Positions 16,572-24,149 of a DNA stretch of 64,000 nt are shown piece after piece. Source of the DNA: Clostridiaceae bacterium (GTDB lineage Bacteria > Bacillota > Clostridia > DSM-8532); contig JAAYNA010000122.1 in NCBI GenBank assembly GCA_012521105.1, positions 1-64,000 on the forward strand, given 5' to 3'. Under the pieces are notes generated by a model. That model ran no database searches and was not told where the DNA came from. It saw nothing but the letters and a program-made list of their open reading frames with translations. Position numbers and translations under genes: made by a program. Position 1 is the stretch's first letter, and each line of letters begins with the position of its first letter.

Positions 16572-17378
16572 TTAAAAAATTGGAATAACCGCACCTTCGT
16601 AATTCTCATTGATGAATTTTCTGACCTTTTCACTTTCCAGTGCTTCCACCAATGCTTTAATTGCCTCGTTGTTTTCATTTCCTTCTTTCACAGCTACTAT
16701 ATTTGCATAGGTTTGAGCTGCCTCCGATTCTTTGTCTTCAACTGCTAAAGCATCTTTGCCAACGTTTAATCCTGCTTCAATGGCATAGTTACCATTAATT
16801 ACAGCCAAATCTACATCCTGCAGTGCCCGGGCAAGCTGAGCTGCTTCGAGTTCTTTAATTACCAGATTTTTTGGATTCGACTCGATATCAAGAACTGTAG
16901 CGGTAAAGCTAACACCTTCTTTTAACTTAATTAATCCTTGGGCTTCCAAAAGCAATAGCGCTCTTGCTTCATTAGTGCCATCATTGGGAACTGCTATGGT
17001 TGCTCCGTCAGGAAGCTCGTCCAGGGATTTTGTCTTTCCCGGATAAATACCAAAGGGTTCATAATGAATGGCTGCAACAGAAACGAGTTTTGTCCCGTTC
17101 TCTTCATTGAAGTTTTTCAAATATGGAAGATGCTGAAAGTAGTTTGCGTCAAGCTCACCATTGTCGGTGGCAATGTTAGGAATAACATAATCGTTGTATT
17201 CCACTATTTCCAGTGTATATCCTTTTTCAGCCAGTATTTCTTTTGCTATTGCCAGAATTTCTGCATGGGGTGTAACACTGGCACCTACCTTTATTGCTGT
17301 TTTTTCTGCCTTGCCGCAGCCTGTAAGTAAAACAGTAAGTAATGTGATTGTAATTAAAATTGTTGTAATTTTTTTCAT
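16572..17378 (-). CDS. metQ: Methionine-binding lipoprotein MetQ (NlpA family)
   Basis: The substrate-binding lipoprotein of a MetNIQ methionine importer, 268 residues. The signal peptide ends in LLTGC with the lipidated Cys at 21. Family signatures include VGASVTPHAEIL, a central DANYFQHLPYL and VPNDGTNEARALLLLE. The ORF opens at 17441, but the ATG at 17378 has AAGGAGG six bases before it and begins a normal signal peptide. It is the last gene of metN-metI-metQ, 31 bases after metI. Substrates of the family include L- and D-Met and sometimes small Met-like compounds or dipeptides. Confidence 0.92.
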   Translation of the reverse strand: MKKITTILITITLLTVLLTGCGKAEKTAIKVGASVTPHAEILAIAKEILAEKGYTLEIVEYNDYVIPNIATDNGELDANYFQHLPYLKNFNEENGTKLVSVAAIHYEPFGIYPGKTKSLDELPDGATIAVPNDGTNEARALLLLEAQGLIKLKEGVSFTATVLDIESNPKNLVIKELEAAQLARALQDVDLAVINGNYAIEAGLNVGKDALAVEDKESEAAQTYANIVAVKEGNENNEAIKALVEALESEKVRKFINENYEGAVIPIF

Positions 17379-17409
17379 ATAAATCCTCCTTTTATATATT
17401 AAATTTATT

Positions 17410-18072
17410 TTATTTAATTCTTTTATCCGAAAGTCTTGCAATTCTCATCCCAATCTCCTGAAAAACCTGCACAATTATTACTAGCAGTATTACCGTAACT
17501 GTCATTACGTCTCTTTGGTATCTGTAGTAACCATAATTTACAGCTATTGTACCAAGACCTCCACCTCCAACAAACCCTGCCATTGCGGAATGACCAAGTA
17601 TTGTTGTAATCGCAATTGCAGCTCCTACTATAAGCGAAGGCTTAGCCTCCGGAATAAGAACCTTGTATACGATTTGAAAGGTTGAACTTCCCATGGACTG
17701 GGCTGCCTCTATAACACCGCCGTCAACTTCTTTCAGTGAAGATTCAACCATTCTTGCAACAAAGGGGAAAGCAGCAACAACAAGGGGAACAATTGTAGCT
17801 GTGGAACCTATAGTGGTCCCCACTATAGCCCGCGTAAACGGCAGAATAAAAACCAGCAGTATCAGGAATGGAACCGACCTTAAAAAGTTAATTATAAAGC
17901 CCAGTAATTTGTTAACAGCGGGTATTGGAAACACTCCGTTTTTATCGGTTATGCATAATACCACACCAAGGGGCAGGCCAAACACATATGCCAATGCAGT
18001 AGAAACAACTGTCATATATAACGTTTCCAAAATGCCTTTACCAAGTAATTCAAGCATTCCTGTATCAAACAT
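17410..18072 (-). CDS. metI: Methionine ABC importer permease MetI
   Basis: A 220-residue permease with five or so membrane segments, the MetI size. The coupling loop region reads EVDGGVIEAAQSMGSSTFQIV. The longer frame from 18120 is rejected because the ATG at 18072 has AAGGAGG before it and gives the usual N-terminus MFDTGMLELLGKG. The start overlaps the end of metN by eight bases, so the two are translationally coupled. Confidence 0.92.
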   Translation of the reverse strand: MFDTGMLELLGKGILETLYMTVVSTALAYVFGLPLGVVLCITDKNGVFPIPAVNKLLGFIINFLRSVPFLILLVFILPFTRAIVGTTIGSTATIVPLVVAAFPFVARMVESSLKEVDGGVIEAAQSMGSSTFQIVYKVLIPEAKPSLIVGAAIAITTILGHSAMAGFVGGGGLGTIAVNYGYYRYQRDVMTVTVILLVIIVQVFQEIGMRIARLSDKRIK

Positions 18073-19063
18073 TGAGCTCTTCCTCCTTATAAAAAATTCC
18101 TTTATCGTCGAGATATGCAAATATTCTTTTTATCGATACATCATCGTCGGGAAGCTGCAGCAGCATCTCGCCATAAGCCTTCCCGTCAATACTTTTTGTG
18201 TTTGCATACAAAATATTTACTACTGCCCTGCATTCAAGTGTCATGTTTGAAATAATGGGTTCAAATGCAGAATTACCGTCAAAGATAATGCGAAGGCATC
18301 TTTTGCCCGTCATATTGCGGATTTCCTTTCCCTTAGGCAAAATTAGCTGCTTTGCAGTGTCTGATCGGGGCCTTAGGAAAACCTCCCTGACTTCGCCGGT
18401 TTCAACCACCTTACCTTCGTGAATTACAGCCACACGATTGCATATTTGATCAATAACTTCCATCTCATGGGTTATAATCAGGATTGTAACACCTAAAGTA
18501 CGGTTTATATTTTGCAACAGCTCTAAAATTGATCGGGTTGTGTTTGGATCAAGCGCACTGGTAATCTCATCGCAAAGTAAGACCTTTGGTTCTGTTGCCA
18601 ATGCTCTTGCTATTGCAACCCTTTGCTTTTGGCCCCCGGACAATTGGGATGGATAAGCATTCAGTTTATCAGACAGACCGACAAGTTCCAAAAGCTTTAT
18701 AGCTTTCGCTCTTGCCTCGTCCTTGGGAACCCAGGCTATTTCCAGCGGATAGCATACATTTCTTAAAGCCGTCCGTTGCTGCAGAAGATTAAAGCTTTGA
18801 AAAACCATGCCCATGGACTGCCTGACCTTAAGAAGCTCTTTTGAACTTAAATCTCCCATATGCATGCTGTCGAAAATTATCTCACCCGACGCAGGCTTCT
18901 CCAGCAGGTTAATACACCGCACCAGCGTACTTTTGCCTGCACCGCTTAACCCAATAATTCCAAAGATCTCTCCTTTTTTAATTTTCAGATTGATATTTTT
19001 CAGAACTTCAATTTTTCCTTCACTTGTATCAAAGGTTTTGCATAAGTTTCGTAAGACTATCAA
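18065..19063 (-). CDS. metN: Methionine ABC importer ATP-binding protein MetN
   Basis: The ATPase of the importer, 332 residues. Walker A is GLSGAGKST (38-46), Q-loop in MVFQSFNLL, signature LSGGQKQR, Walker B VLLCDEITSALDP and the H-loop in ITHEM. The C-terminal 75 residues form the NIL domain that in E. coli MetN binds methionine and shuts transport when the cell is full. The start is a TTG at 19063 with GAGGGGGG six bases before it. The gene begins 40 bases after an intrinsic terminator in the leader, so its expression depends on read-through. Confidence 0.93.
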   Translation of the reverse strand: MIVLRNLCKTFDTSEGKIEVLKNINLKIKKGEIFGIIGLSGAGKSTLVRCINLLEKPASGEIIFDSMHMGDLSSKELLKVRQSMGMVFQSFNLLQQRTALRNVCYPLEIAWVPKDEARAKAIKLLELVGLSDKLNAYPSQLSGGQKQRVAIARALATEPKVLLCDEITSALDPNTTRSILELLQNINRTLGVTILIITHEMEVIDQICNRVAVIHEGKVVETGEVREVFLRPRSDTAKQLILPKGKEIRNMTGKRCLRIIFDGNSAFEPIISNMTLECRAVVNILYANTKSIDGKAYGEMLLQLPDDDVSIKRIFAYLDDKGIFYKEEELNV

Positions 19064-19101
19064 TTAGTTCCCCCCTCAAATAAAAGAGATTCCCGAAAAA
19101 A

Positions 19102-19134
19102 TAAAAAAGTAGGAAACTTTCTGCTTCCTACTTT
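19102..19134 (-). terminator. Leader terminator (attenuator) of metNIQ
   Basis: On the minus strand AAAGTAGGAA and TTCCTACTTT form a perfect ten-base stem with a nine-base loop, followed at once by T runs (19108-19103, then 19100-19096 after one interruption). It lies between the Met/Cys leader peptide and metN. Its 5' arm is also part of the competing antiterminator. Confidence 0.8.
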
Positions 19135-19192
19135 GAAAATATTGTATAATAAATTTTATAAGTATTATATCATTACAGATAGGAGCAGAAAG
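19117..19192 (-). promoter_or_regulatory. Predicted antiterminator of the metNIQ leader
   Basis: The end of the leader peptide gene (minus-strand CTTTCTGCTCCTA, 19192-19180) is complementary over 13 base pairs with one bulge to TAGGAAGCAGAAAG (19130-19117), which contains part of the terminator's 5' arm. The two structures exclude each other. A ribosome finishing the peptide at the stop codon (19175-19173) would cover the first arm and allow termination; one held at the Met codons would leave it free. Confidence 0.65.
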
Positions 19193-19298
19193 CAATATGA
19201 GAACAGCACAGCATAGACATGTACATACACATGTACATGTTAGACTGACACATACCAATAGCACTGATATTTAAATGTGCTGATATTTTGGTTCTCAT
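19173..19298 (-). CDS. Met/Cys-rich leader peptide, 41 residues
   Basis: A short gene between the metNIQ promoter and its attenuator. The ATG at 19298-19296 has AAAAAGGAG seven bases before it, a near-ideal ribosome binding site. The product begins MRTKISAHLN; Met occurs at 1, 16, 21, 23, 25, 27 and 29 and Cys at 17, 24, 31, 32 and 38, so 12 of 41 residues are sulfur amino acids, with the core MYMCMYMSML. This composition is what a transcription-attenuation leader peptide looks like, by analogy with trp or leu leaders in other bacteria. The start codon itself can pair with a later segment (TATGAGAAC at 19299-19291 with GTTCTCATA at 19204-19196). Another frame across the same bases also opens but has no ribosome binding site. 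Confidence 0.75.
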   Translation of the reverse strand: MRTKISAHLNISAIGMCQSNMYMCMYMSMLCCSHIAFCSYL

Positions 19299-19333
19299 AG
19301 TGCAACTCCTTTTTGACAATACTGATTAGTGAG

Positions 19334-19362
19334 ATAATATAACAGTTTTTCTTAGATGTCAA
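19334..19362 (-). promoter_or_regulatory. Sigma-A promoter of the metNIQ leader
   Basis: On the minus strand TTGACA (19362-19357) and TATTAT (19339-19334) are 17 bases apart, an almost perfect vegetative promoter. Transcription should begin near 19327, about 30 bases before the leader peptide start. Confidence 0.8.
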
Positions 19363-19388
19363 TAGGCTTTTAATGTTTTTTTATGTAA

Positions 19389-19467
19389 CAAAAGGGCGAT
19401 TTGCAAAACACTTCATACATTCCCTTACCCCCCCATTACGGAAATGTATGCGCAGAACGCCCTTTTG
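19389..19467 (-). terminator. Long nested hairpin ending the patB-opp operon
   Basis: CAAAAGGGCG (19389-19398) and CGCCCTTTTG (19458-19467) form a perfect outer stem; inside it CATACATT and AATGTATG form a second stem with a G-rich loop. It lies just after the amidohydrolase stop and before the metNIQ promoter. The minus-strand stem ends in TTTTG followed by an A/T-rich stretch. Confidence 0.65.
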
Positions 19468-19476
19468 GTTCTAAAA

Positions 19477-20691
19477 TTAAAACATAGTTTTTTCTATAAC
19501 ACCATTTTTCATGACAAATTTTATATGATCTTTATCAGCAAGACAACTTATGTCTTCCAGAGGATTTCCATCTGTAATTACTATATCTGCAAGTTTATTA
19601 GCCTCAAGGCTTCCAAGCTTATCCTGGCACTTCATAAGGTATGCTCCGTTAATAGTTCCGGCTTTAATGGCCTCCATAGGAGTCATTCCTGCCTGAACCA
19701 TCGCTGCAAATTCCCTGCCATGCTTTGCATAGGGTGTGTTTTCGGAGTTACTGAAGTCTGTTCCCAAAGCTATACGGATACCTGCTTTTCTTGCCATTTC
19801 AATGGTTTTTATGTTTGCCTCGGCGCATAGTTTTGCCTTTTCTGCAACAACAGGATGTAAGCCCGGAAAATTCGCCACATTTAGCGAAATATACAGTGTT
19901 GTTACAAGAGAAACATCGTTTTCAGCCATTAAATCTATGGTTTCAGGCCCGAGCATTACCCCGTGTTCAATACATTTAACCCCTGCCTTAACAGCCTGAA
20001 GCGCTCCGGTATTTCCGGTGCAGTGTGCTGCCACATAGGTACCATGCCTTTTTGCTTCATCGACAATTGCCTTTAATTCCTCGAATGAAAACTGCACATC
20101 ATCAACATTGTCGGTAATTGACGATACTCCACCTGTTGCGCACACCTTTATAAACTTAGCGCCCTGCCTGAAGTTTTCTCTGGTTGCGAGAATACATTCA
20201 TCAACACCATCGCATAATCTTCCGGTTAAATTAGTTGCATTTACCTCTTCTTTTGTAGCATCGCCTGCTGTATCGCAGTGACCGCCTGTTATACTTAAAA
20301 GCCTTCCACCGGGCATTATACGGGGGCCCCGAAGATAGCTCCGGTTAACAGCACGCTGTAGTGCAAACCCGTTTACACTCATGTCCCTTAAACCTGTAAA
20401 TCCTGCATCAAGCAGAATTCCAATCTCGTATGCCGCACCCAGCAGCTTATCGTATCTCGTGCTTTTCTGTCCGGCGGTTACTTCCCCACAAAGATGTATA
20501 TGACAGTCGATAAACCCCGGCATTATAGTGCCGTTCCCGGCGTCTATTATTTCAGCCTTTTCGGGTATTTCTTTTTCATTATATATTCCAGCATATTTAA
20601 TTGTATCATTAATAACAACAACAAGTCCATTTTCTATTGCTGTATCCGATACACCATCTATTACTCTTCCTTTTAAAGCATAAAAACCCAT
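19477..20691 (-). CDS. Metal-dependent amidohydrolase (imidazolonepropionase / Xaa-Pro dipeptidase-like)
   Basis: A cytoplasmic amidohydrolase-superfamily enzyme of 404 residues. Metal-binding HxH is in DCHIHL (64-66), a probable carboxylated Lys in AKFIKVCATGG, further metal His in AAHCTGNTG and IEHG, and the catalytic Asp in LGTDFSN. The family member type usually called amidohydrolase or imidazolonepropionase-like includes dipeptidases that cleave Xaa-Pro or acyl-amino acids. As the last gene of an operon with a peptide importer and a C-S lyase it most likely hydrolyses the imported dipeptide or N-acyl conjugate; that is inference from context. GGAGG lies before the ATG. Confidence 0.85.
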   Translation of the reverse strand: MGFYALKGRVIDGVSDTAIENGLVVVINDTIKYAGIYNEKEIPEKAEIIDAGNGTIMPGFIDCHIHLCGEVTAGQKSTRYDKLLGAAYEIGILLDAGFTGLRDMSVNGFALQRAVNRSYLRGPRIMPGGRLLSITGGHCDTAGDATKEEVNATNLTGRLCDGVDECILATRENFRQGAKFIKVCATGGVSSITDNVDDVQFSFEELKAIVDEAKRHGTYVAAHCTGNTGALQAVKAGVKCIEHGVMLGPETIDLMAENDVSLVTTLYISLNVANFPGLHPVVAEKAKLCAEANIKTIEMARKAGIRIALGTDFSNSENTPYAKHGREFAAMVQAGMTPMEAIKAGTINGAYLMKCQDKLGSLEANKLADIVITDGNPLEDISCLADKDHIKFVMKNGVIEKTMF

Positions 20692-20730
20692 TTCCTGTCC
20701 TCCATTATAAATACTAAAGGTGTACCAGCC

Positions 20731-21192
20731 TCATTCTTCTACTTCAATAATGCCTTCTATTTCAACGGTAACATTCAGTGGCAGCTGGTTTACACCAATT
20801 GCAGACCTGGCAGCACATCCATCCGGGCCAAATATGTCTATTAACAACTGGGATGCACCATTTGCAACTATGTGTTGTTTATCAAAACCTGTTTCACTGC
20901 TGACCATAACGGTAAGTTTTACTATCTGCTTAATTTTATCCAGATCACCAATCGCATTTTTAACCGCAGCCAGCATATTTAATATACAAAGCCTTGCTGC
21001 CTCCTGGGCGTATTCAATATTGCGTTCATTACCTACCTTGCCCGAGTATTTAACTTCTCCATCCAGCCAGGGTATTTGCCCTGAAACATAAAGTACGTTT
21101 CCTACCCTTCTCACCGGTGTATATAAGCCACCGGCAGGCGATGATTCTGGAAGTGTGTAACCAAGTTCAATTATTCTGTTTTCAATTCTCAT
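20731..21192 (-). CDS. ridA: RidA/YjgF-family enamine/imine deaminase
   Basis: A 153-residue member of the RidA (YjgF/YER057c) family. Signatures include GNVLYVSGQIPW, the region LAAVKNAIGDLDKI and the last strand PLNVTVEIEGIIEV. RidA enzymes speed the hydrolysis of reactive 2-aminoacrylate and related imines that PLP enzymes release. The length is nearer the longer subfamily than the 128-residue E. coli RidA. The ATG at 21192 is chosen because AGGAGGG lies six bases before it; it overlaps the oppF stop as ATGA. Being next to a PatB-type C-S lyase, whose reaction produces an aminoacrylate intermediate, the role makes sense. Confidence 0.87.
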   Translation of the reverse strand: MRIENRIIELGYTLPESSPAGGLYTPVRRVGNVLYVSGQIPWLDGEVKYSGKVGNERNIEYAQEAARLCILNMLAAVKNAIGDLDKIKQIVKLTVMVSSETGFDKQHIVANGASQLLIDIFGPDGCAARSAIGVNQLPLNVTVEIEGIIEVEE

Positions 21193-22160
21193 ACCCATCC
21201 CTCCTGTATTTTAAAGCAGGCCACATAATGATTGTTCCCAATATCCTTTAATTCCGGAGCTTCCTCGGTACACTTTAGCCTGGCATGTGGGCAGCGGGAT
21301 GAAAACCTGCAGACAGGTGCCGGATTGATTGGACTTGGAACCTCTCCTGACATAAGCATGTGCGGGCGGCTTCTTTCATAGTCAGGATCGGCCTCCGGAG
21401 CTGCCGCAAGCAGGCCTATTGTATACGGATGCATTGGGTTATTAAAAAGTTCGTTGGTTTCGGCCATCTCAATTATCTGTCCAAGGTACATTACGGCAGT
21501 GTCGTCGGAAATATGCCTCACCACATTTAAGTCATGAGCTATAAATAAATAAGTTAGTTTTAATTTTTCCTGAAGTTCTACAAGCAGGTTTATTATCTGG
21601 GCCTGTATTGAAACGTCGAGCGCCGAGATTGCCTCGTCGCAAACAATGAACTTTGGATTTACAGCCAGCGCACGGGCAATTCCTACCCGCTGACGCTGTC
21701 CGCCTGAAAATTCATGAGGAAAGCGGTTTGCATGTTCCCTCGACAGGCCTACAATCTCCAACAGTTCATAAATACGTTCGGTATATTCCTGTTTTGTTTT
21801 GCAAAGCCTGTGTATTTTCAAGCCTTCTCCGATTATTGCACCCACTGTCTTCCTGGGATCCAGGCTTGCATAAGGGTCCTGGAAAATCATCTGCATTTTT
21901 CTTGTAAATTGCTTATATTCCTTACCCTTCAGTTTATGAACATCCATACCATCGAACAATACCTTGCCTTCATCTGCATCGTAAAGTCTAATGATAGTGC
22001 GTCCGACAGTGGTTTTACCACAACCTGATTCTCCCACCAGACCGAAGGTTTTTCCTTCATCTATATAAAAGCTAACATCGTCAACTGCATGCAGCACCTG
22101 GTTTCTTCCCAGGCGAAAATATTTTTTCAGTCCTTTTACTTCAAGCAAATGCTCTGCCAT
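21189..22160 (-). CDS. oppF: Oligopeptide/dipeptide ABC importer ATP-binding protein OppF/DppF
   Basis: The second ATPase of the peptide importer, 323 residues. Walker A is GESGCGKTT, Q-loop in MIFQDPYASLDP, signature FSGGQRQRVG, Walker B FIVCDEAISALD and H-loop AHDLNVV. The C-terminal oligo_HPY region has the Cys pair CRFSSRCPHARLKC. It follows oppD with no gap and overlaps ridA by four bases. Confidence 0.93.
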   Translation of the reverse strand: MAEHLLEVKGLKKYFRLGRNQVLHAVDDVSFYIDEGKTFGLVGESGCGKTTVGRTIIRLYDADEGKVLFDGMDVHKLKGKEYKQFTRKMQMIFQDPYASLDPRKTVGAIIGEGLKIHRLCKTKQEYTERIYELLEIVGLSREHANRFPHEFSGGQRQRVGIARALAVNPKFIVCDEAISALDVSIQAQIINLLVELQEKLKLTYLFIAHDLNVVRHISDDTAVMYLGQIIEMAETNELFNNPMHPYTIGLLAAAPEADPDYERSRPHMLMSGEVPSPINPAPVCRFSSRCPHARLKCTEEAPELKDIGNNHYVACFKIQEGWV

Positions 22161-23201
22161 TTACAAATCCCCCTTCAGGTCCGGTGTTTTTAATCTGCTC
22201 TTCCTTCCAGGCAGTTCATATTTCGGGGCCTGCGGATGCATAAGCCAGCAAAAAACACTATGCCCGTTTTCCAGTTCGGTAGCTTCAGGCGGCATTTCCT
22301 GGCAGATTTTCATGCAGTATCTGCATCGTGGTGCAAAGGCACAGCCTTTAGGCGGTGCAAACAGATCGGGAGGAGTGCCGGGAATAGATGCTAATGTCTT
22401 TCCTGTCTCCCCGCCCGAGGGCATACTTTCCAGCAAGCCCGATGTATAGGGATGCTTTGGATTGTAGAAAATATCCCGGGCAAGGCCTGTCTCAACAACT
22501 TTGCCGGCGTACATTACTGCAATGCGCTCAGCAGTCCGCGCAACAACACCGAGGTCATGAGTTATTATTACCACCGAGGTTCCCAGTTCTTCTTTTAATT
22601 CATTAATCAATTCAAGAATTTGTGCCTGGGTTGTAACATCCAGGGCAGTTGTTGGTTCGTCAGCAAACAAAACCTTGGGGTTACATACAAGGGCCATTGC
22701 AATCATAACACGCTGGCGCATGCCTCCCGAGAACTGGTGAGGATATCGCCTGTAGCTTTTTTCGGGGTTGGAAATACCCACCTTTTTAAGCATTTCTATT
22801 GCCCTTTGTTTTGCTTCTTTTGCAGATATTTTCTCGTGTTTAAGTATTCCCTCTGCTATCTGTCTGCCGATACGCATGGTTGGATTCAGGCTTGTCATTG
22901 GATCCTGAAATATCATGGACATTTCGTTTCCCCTAAGCCTTTGCATTTGCTTTTGGGAATAATGGGTTATGTTTTCACCGCAATAATAGATTTTACCGCT
23001 TTTAAGCCTTCCGGGCGGTGTTGGTATAAGCTTCATAACGCTTTGAACAGTAACACTTTTACCACAACCCGACTCTCCGACAACAGCAAGGGTTTCACCT
23101 TTATTTACATACAGCGAGACTCCTCTGACTGCATGAACCTCTCCTGCATATGTATCAAAGGAAAAATGTAAATCTTCTATTTCCAAAATTCTTTCCTGCA
23201 T
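22161..23201 (-). CDS. oppD: Oligopeptide/dipeptide ABC importer ATP-binding protein OppD/DppD
   Basis: The first ATPase of the importer, 346 residues. Walker A is GESGCGKSV, signature FSGGMRQRV, Walker [14 protein letters not shown]-loop ITHDLGVV. The C-terminus carries the Cys cluster [14 protein letters not shown] that in OppD-type ATPases can hold an iron-sulfur cluster. It lies 18 bases after oppC. Confidence 0.93.
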
Positions 23202-23219
23202 CAGATTAAGTTCTCCTTT

Positions 23220-24149
23220 CTACATACGCAGCTTTGGATCTAACGCATCTCTTAATCCATCGCCAAAAAGATTGAATGACAACATAGTAACAGATATTAA
23301 AACCGCGGGTATTAAAAGCTGTGACGGATAGACGCGGAATACCGATATACCCATATTTGCAAGTTGACCCCAACTTGGAATAGGCGGAGCAATTCCAAGC
23401 CCGATAAAACTTAAAAAAGCCTCTTGGAATATTGCTGCAGGTACGCCCATTGTCATGCTTACAACAACAATTCCCAGAGTATTGGGAATCAAATGCTGAA
23501 ATATAAGTGTCGCAGAAGATGCACCGAGAGTACGTGATGCAAGAACAAATTCCTGTTCTTTCAGTTGAAGTATCATACCGCGTACACTTCTTGCGGTACC
23601 CATCCAGCCTGTTAATGCAAAAGCTATAACAAGAGCAACTGGTCCTGTGCCGATATATATGGTTATTAAAATTATATAAATCATATTTGGCACGCACATC
23701 ACTATATCTATAAACCGCATAATAATCATGTCAACTTTTCCACCGAAATACCCGGATATTCCGCCGATCACAACACCTATTATTCCTGGTATTACCGAAC
23801 CAAAAATACCAACTGCCAGCGATACCCTTGCGCCAACCCATACACGTACCCACAGATCCCTTCCGTGAGAATCGGTTCCGAATGGGTGTTCTATGGAAGG
23901 TGGTGCATTGGTATTCGTAAGATCCTGTTTTGTATACGAATACTGTGAGAAAATTGGAACAAATATAGCCAGCATTGTAATAATAATTATTATTGACAGG
24001 CCAATCATTGCTACCTTATTTTTAAATAACCTGCGGCGTGCATCGGCCCAAAATGTAATACTGGGCCGGGTAATAATCTCACTTTCCGTACTACCGGCGT
24101 TCATATGCGAAAAGGCATCCTTGGGCAGATCAATTGGTATGTTACTCAT
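23220..24149 (-). CDS. oppC: Peptide ABC importer permease OppC/DppC
   Basis: A 309-residue permease. An N-terminal cytoplasmic stretch of about 40 residues is followed by one membrane segment (IGLSIIIIITMLAIFVPIF), the OppC_N region with PPSIEHPFGTDSHGRD, and five more segments. The coupling loop reads ASRTLGASSATLIFQHLIP and the C-terminus GDGLRDALDPKLRM is the standard DppC/OppC ending. It lies 11 bases after oppB. Confidence 0.92.
   Translation of the reverse strand: MSNIPIDLPKDAFSHMNAGSTESEIITRPSITFWADARRRLFKNKVAMIGLSIIIIITMLAIFVPIFSQYSYTKQDLTNTNAPPSIEHPFGTDSHGRDLWVRVWVGARVSLAVGIFGSVIPGIIGVVIGGISGYFGGKVDMIIMRFIDIVMCVPNMIYIILITIYIGTGPVALVIAFALTGWMGTARSVRGMILQLKEQEFVLASRTLGASSATLIFQHLIPNTLGIVVVSMTMGVPAAIFQEAFLSFIGLGIAPPIPSWGQLANMGISVFRVYPSQLLIPAVLISVTMLSFNLFGDGLRDALDPKLRM

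Follow-up and report, generated by a model that had tools for sequence, protein, structure and literature searches.

How is methionine import controlled in a clostridium whose importer operon carries none of the expected regulatory RNAs? In Firmicutes, control of methionine genes usually is attributed to SAM riboswitches, T-boxes, and repressors. The stretch of DNA analyzed here (the window, 64,000 nucleotides long, whose numbering is used throughout) includes a metNIQ operon preceded by a leader, and every part of both lies on the (-) strand (Table 1). Covariance models bear out the original prediction that neither a SAM riboswitch nor a T-box is present at this site: no Rfam family was matched anywhere in the window, the SAM riboswitch model (RF00162) gave no match at the metN leader, and the T-box model (RF00230) gave none in the window or at loci L001-L004. 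The features of the leader suggest that it very probably functions as a ribosome-mediated transcription attenuator. Judged from its sequence, the best explanation for this design is that it would sense the charging of Met-tRNA, and probably that of Cys-tRNA as well.

Table 1. Positions of the leader elements and structural genes of metNIQ in the window
Feature	Position	Strand	Evidence or remark
Sigma-70-type promoter, TTGACA-17-TATTAT	19334..19362	(-)	11/12 consensus matches
Segment 1, Shine-Dalgarno and start of leader ORF, AGGAGTTGCACTATGAGAAC	19291..19310	(-)	Predicted partner of segment 2 in the ribosome-free leader
Leader peptide ORF, 41 codons and TAA stop, MRTKISAHLNISAIGMCQSNMYMCMYMSMLCCSHIAFCSYL	19173..19298	(-)	Homologues upstream of metN in 3/3 other genus members
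Regulatory ATG codons (alternate positions 21-29)	19212..19238	(-)	Unique in window
Segment 2, 3' end of leader ORF	19181..19204	(-)	Alternative partners: segment 1, or segment 3 (through 19192-19180)
Segment 3, 5' arm and loop of terminator	19117..19131	(-)	Pairs with segment 2 in the antiterminator
Intrinsic terminator (segments 3:4), stem of 12 pairs followed by a T tract, upstream of metN	19096..19134	(-)	Conserved
metN, methionine importer ATPase with NIL domain, TTG start	18065..19063	(-)	NIL domain PF09383 3e-21; start conserved
metI, permease	17410..18120	(-)	NF008049 1.3e-65, above cut-off
metQ, substrate-binding lipoprotein	16572..17441	(-)	PF03180 4.7e-97; TIGR00363 4.4e-67

The best NCBIfam match for metN is MetN (TIGR02314, 1.9e-104), a score under the curated cut-off of that model. 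Upstream of metNIQ, at 19477-24149 on the (-) strand, are genes for an amidohydrolase, a RidA-like protein, and an oligopeptide-type ABC transporter (assigned by eye except for the amidohydrolase), which perhaps constitute a peptide-use operon adjoining the methionine importer. Between the amidohydrolase gene and the leader promoter is a long, terminator-like inverted repeat (AAAAGGGCG...CGCCCTTTTG, with the inner arm ACATTTCC/GGGAATGT; 19384-19470, (-) strand), which also is found in species G002 of the genus (L033, 1325-1415).

The leader has the parts that are expected of an attenuator. Between the promoter and the terminator is a short ORF, conserved in four species, whose ATG at 19298 is preceded at a distance of 7 nucleotides by the Shine-Dalgarno sequence AGGAG. 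Seven of its codons specify Met (1, 16, 21, 23, 25, 27, and 29) and five specify Cys (17, 24, 31, 32, and 38). Its enrichment in codons for the amino acid imported by the operon is evident from counts within the window, from a survey of metN genes, and from the controls for that survey. The pattern of five alternating ATG codons occurs once in the 64 kb, where zero occurrences are expected, and never arose in 100 shuffles. The intrinsic terminator upstream of the first structural gene has a stem of 12 pairs (19134-19106, -14.5 kcal/mol) that includes one G-U pair, with TTTATTTTTT directly 3' of it. The original prediction had named the promoter, the 41-codon ORF with its strong ribosome-binding site, and the seven Met and five Cys codons, and all of these are located where it placed them. 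It also had described a perfect terminator just upstream of metN, which stands as a terminator and falls short of perfect by the single G-U pair.

Three alternative pairings can be drawn among the segments of the leader. The antiterminator, which excludes the terminator and is found in all four species, is formed by CTTTCTGCTCCTA (19192-19180) and TAGGAAGCAGAAAG (19130-19117) through 13 pairs with one bulge, as had been proposed. The wider duplex over its arms has an energy of -16.3 kcal/mol, compared with -10.7 +/- 1.9 in shuffles, of which only 2/500 were as good. To this can be added a pairing that the original prediction had overlooked, in which segment 1 (19310-19291) pairs with segment 2 (19204-19181) through the complements GGAG/CTCC, GCA/TGC, and ATGAGAAC/GTTCTCAT. 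This 1:2 duplex (-22.6 kcal/mol, matched by 1/500 shuffles) offers an alternative structure for the untranslated leader, and it supplies the third state known from classical attenuators, completing the three-way design.

When the entire leader is folded, the structure of lowest energy contains both the 1:2 pairing and the terminator, and it is far more stable than those of shuffled sequences (z = -5.5). Strong folding of this kind might instead point to an unrecognized riboswitch or a protein-binding leader in which the ORF is a by-product. This alternative is extremely unlikely, given that no Rfam family matches the leader, that the hairpins of the 1:2 pairing, the Met run, and the terminator explain how strongly it folds, and that the enrichment in Met and Cys codons recurs in other leaders that have no sequence in common with this one.

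From the anatomy, pairings, conservation, and recurrence of the leader we infer that it is translated and that ribosome stalling would couple transcription to the supply of Met or Cys. When charged Met-tRNA is ample, the leader ribosome would reach the stop codon and cover segment 2, allowing the terminator (3:4) to form. When Met-tRNA is short, the ribosome would stall on Met codons 21-29 and leave segment 2 free to pair with segment 3, and the resulting antiterminator would permit RNA polymerase to enter metNIQ. In the absence of leader translation, segment 2 would pair with the Shine-Dalgarno sequence and start codon, such that the ribosome site is hidden and the terminator is free to form.

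These states were modeled in all four species by masked folding, in which an assumed ribosome footprint is blocked and the transcript is folded up to the start of the terminator 3' arm. In these models, segment 2 is free while the ribosome occupies the regulatory codons and is covered once the ribosome is at the stop codon. In each species the antiterminator formed whichever Met codon occupied the A-site, and it also formed with the A-site at the adjacent Cys codons (31/32 in G000, the window species, and G001; 29/30 in G002). It faded with the A-site at codons 34-35 of G000, or their equivalents, and was gone near the stop codon. With the ribosome on codons 15-28, the model lets segments 1 and 2 re-pair around the ribosome, and a steric block is assumed for these positions. 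For the full-length RNA at equilibrium, the terminator was favored in most stalled states, and thus antitermination must be kinetic and take place during transcription, as it commonly does in attenuators. In G000 and G002, with the ribosome on the second of the adjacent Cys codons, the antiterminator gained on or equaled the terminator even at equilibrium. The ribosome geometry of the original prediction, including loss of the antiterminator near the stop codon, was reproduced in 4/4 species. Its reading of the leader as an attenuator likewise finds support in conservation, masked folding, the absence of T-boxes and SAM riboswitches, and the Met/Cys leaders of seven other families.

If the peptide serves this function, its conservation in relatives becomes a key prediction, and the peptide indeed lies upstream of metN in 4/4 species analyzed from the genus (G000 and three others, G001, G002, and G003), with the promoter and terminator in the same layout. 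All three RNA pairings are kept in every species, including the 1:2 pairing in G001, G002, and G003; the G002 locus is split between two contigs, whose ends overlap within the terminator. The promoter is retained in the three relatives, with TATCAT as the -10 element of G003. An alignment of the four peptides (MRTKISAHLNISAIGMCQSNMYMCMYMSMLCCSHIAFCSYL from G000, followed by MRTNVSAYLNMNASDMCLSDMYMCMCMSMPCCSHIAFCSYL, MRTRISAHLNTGAFGMCSMYMCMCMPGSCCSHNAFCSCL, and, from G003, MGNKASSFSKNSLSVMCLSNMCMCMSMAMPMSMMRCSHIAFYSDK) reveals that Met columns 21, 23, 25, and 27 are invariant and that the Met run is maintained or longer in each species, while codons 2-20 vary freely. The most diverged species, G003, has a Met run of eight codons over positions 21-34 and retains fewer of the Cys positions of the window leader. 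Its terminator carries a two-sided A-U to G-C change, and its antiterminator re-forms in a shifted register. A peptide HMM applied to 391 genomes of the class revealed no convincing member beyond the genus, and a plasmid search returned metN matches only. Five of the seven loci with weak HMM matches were inspected, and all five were judged to be inside or antisense to unrelated genes.

Codons 32-39 provide evidence regarding the role of the peptide itself. They are identical in G000 and G001 and differ by one nonsynonymous change in G002, with no third-position change among these three species. RNA pairing would explain why this stretch is frozen at the nucleotide level, and a peptide motif would not. 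The same observation bears on the proposal that the product of the ORF is itself functional, as a small protein rich in Met and Cys that acts in trans (for example, by binding Cu(I)), with an ordinary terminator downstream. The MxMxM and CC sequences do resemble metal-binding motifs in general, but the proposal is very unlikely because RNA pairing explains why codons 32-39 are conserved as nucleotides, third positions included. Furthermore, the peptide has no match in Pfam or NCBIfam, and leaders from other families share with it only Met/Cys content, position, and a terminator. Similarly improbable is a nascent-chain arrest mechanism, such as that by which TnaC senses tryptophan, wherein the exit tunnel would hold a fixed peptide motif that responds to free methionine or SAM. 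A C-terminal CCSHxAFC stretch that might serve this purpose is conserved in 3/4 species, but it lies within the RNA-pairing strand that is frozen at the nucleotide level. In addition, the number of Met residues varies while their alternation stays, and no motif is common across families.

The same organization is found well beyond this genus. A search that was independent of metN used only the alternate-ATG pattern against the 391 class genomes. Most matches were antisense to His-rich proteins (for example, LarC) or inside genes and are not leaders, and among the matches examined, which were a part of the total, only one in G100 (family f50) proved to be a leader. It is a free-standing ORF with a GTG start (MRVTMRMSVYMLMMSMMMSMLMCMYMCFRAQKRIIVARMNKFTHFLVGY) directly upstream of metN-metI, accompanied by a promoter, a terminator, an 11-nucleotide perfect complement (CTCGAATGAAC/GTTCATTCGAG), and a 1:2 pairing. 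The regions upstream of 103 metN genes also were surveyed, and Met/Cys-rich ORFs followed by terminators were found in families f50, f27, f52, f43, f18, f3, and f79 in addition to the genus of the window. Nine of the 103 regions, four of them from this genus, have a Met/Cys-rich ORF preceded by a Shine-Dalgarno sequence at p<1e-5, a binomial value that assumes 4% Met plus Cys when the measured background is 5.6%, such that the claim rests on empirical controls. These yielded no such ORFs in 50 shuffled sets or in 557 kb of other clostridial and related sequence, and two on the reverse strand of the same metN regions.

Evidence for the antiterminator differs among these leaders. The pairing surpasses shuffles in G312 (2/500 as good) and does so more weakly in G100 (24/500) and G202 (25/500), and no antiterminator better than shuffles was found when G072, G383, G300, G374, and G265 were tested singly. 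Homologous leaders in five genera of f27 all are located upstream of metN (for example, MNQWKAMQMNITLMDSMCMMMCCVSECAKNR), and in five sequences from this family a strand at or after the stop codon pairs and, as judged by eye, covaries with the terminator arm. Segment 2 of the G265 leader, like that of its relatives L332 and L333, is just 3' of the stop codon, and thus its occlusion by a terminating ribosome would be only partial. The loop region of the terminators of the f27 leaders L331-L335 (GTCTGTGCAGG) is nearly invariant, which is more constant than a terminator requires. The leaders of G312 and G374 rest on single genomes, because no homologues were found in their genus or family. Counting the genus of the window, the leaders total 16 genomes in eight families. 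Those of different families have no evident sequence similarity, and what they have in common is Met/Cys content, position, and a terminator. The finding thus is broader than what was originally predicted, in that it is a recurrent design at metNIQ in clostridia rather than a feature of one locus.

Other clostridia place different RNAs at the same gene. T-boxes matching RF00230 and carrying a Met specifier precede metN in the sister genus g2, and 14 loci of the class with T-box features have, by eye, AUG at the specifier position. A T-box of this type shares with the window leader the same gene and presumably the same signal, the charging of Met-tRNA, but T-box RNAs sense tRNA directly and without translation. 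SAM riboswitches (RF00162) lie upstream of metN in family f21, and they differ in being metabolite-binding aptamers. Both RNA classes are used elsewhere within the genus of the window: metK follows a SAM riboswitch in each of the four species, and each genome has 10-13 T-boxes, none of which was matched at metN. A second SAM riboswitch is found only in G002 (L161, contig C35), upstream of a small uncharacterized ORF and an ORF that appears by eye to be S-layer-like, with no met gene. The nearest metN outside the genus (L005 in G012, 69% identical) has no leader ORF, T-box, or SAM riboswitch that could be seen upstream. At L006, L007, and L011 (also L008 and L025), which belong to other genera, the region upstream of metN has motifs of the type CCTATAGGAATAATATGACAACAGATGGGAG or TTCATATATGAA, which are neither T-boxes nor leader peptides and possibly are operators of a transcription factor.

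Whether the leader would respond to Met alone or to both sulfur amino acids is a more difficult question. It is possible, if somewhat doubtful, that only Met-tRNA charging is sensed and that the Cys codons are incidental, arising, for example, as TGT/TGC between ATG codons or being imposed by base pairing of the RNA. Constancy is greatest in the Met columns, the leader of G003 has fewer of the Cys positions of the window leader, metNIQ is a Met importer, and a stall at Cys38 would not be permissive according to masked folding. The same models nevertheless make stalls at Cys31 or Cys32 permissive, and by geometry they are equally so, which implies that the device probably reports both amino acids. 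Moreover, in six unrelated lineages that were picked on Met, Cys accounts for 17/205 residues against a background of 3% (P 1.6e-4), an excess to which ATGTG(T/C) adjacency in Met-chosen leaders may contribute. The Streptomyces MetL peptide likewise reads CMCRRMC (PMC8079986). A joint sensor of sulfur amino acids is plausible on these grounds.

The mechanism is of a known kind. The classical attenuators of the trp, his, leu, and ilv operons in Proteobacteria and Actinobacteria similarly combine regulatory codons in a short ORF with three alternative pairings and an intrinsic terminator before the first gene. The window leader differs from them in that its regulatory codon specifies Met, the initiating amino acid, and is mixed with Cys codons, its target is an importer, and its host is a clostridium. 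A Met leader of metNIQ already has been predicted in Streptomyces lividans, where metL is a predicted Met attenuator (PMC8079986, Table 4). Its peptide, which ends in CMCRRMCAF, also combines Met and Cys, but it is leaderless and, per the authors, lacks a clear Rho-independent terminator (PMC8079986). Furthermore, it is a single annotated case with only two internal Met residues and no similarity to the window peptide that is visible by eye.

Regular leader peptides likewise are known from Firmicutes. Histidine leaders precede hisS/hisZ in bacilli, where the replacement of T-boxes by leader peptides was noted (PMC2965389), and ilv leaders are reported from S. aureus (PMC5794164) and Listeria (PMC5864092). 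These resemble the window leader, in the hisS case also as a substitute for a T-box, but they involve other amino acids and genes and are unrelated in sequence. Cys-codon leader ORFs for sulfur metabolism or Cys-tRNA synthesis are represented by the cysS uORFC-8-2 motif (PMC8632094) and by actinobacterial leaders (PMC1262725), which differ in using Cys only and in their genes and phyla. Comparative work in Actinobacteria reported Cys leaders and no Met leaders (PMC1262725). A literature search of limited reach found no report of Met leader peptides in Firmicutes, and priority is uncertain.

Taken further, these findings raise the possibility, which falls just short of an even chance, that clostridia repeatedly evolved Met- and Cys-sensing leader peptides for Met import, with such leaders, T-boxes, and SAM riboswitches able to stand in for one another at metN. 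Given that Met also is the initiating residue, their response might be two-phase, on at moderate Met limitation and off once initiation fails and the 1:2 pairing forms. The use of Met as the regulatory codon thereby poses a testable puzzle, in that starvation for the signal also starves the initiation of the sensor itself. The mixture of Met and Cys codons suggests a sensor of sulfur supply rather than of a single amino acid. The leaders would represent a third RNA solution at metN, one that is based on translation and that recurs without a common sequence in at least eight clostridial families, making metN a good case for examining how regulatory RNAs replace one another.
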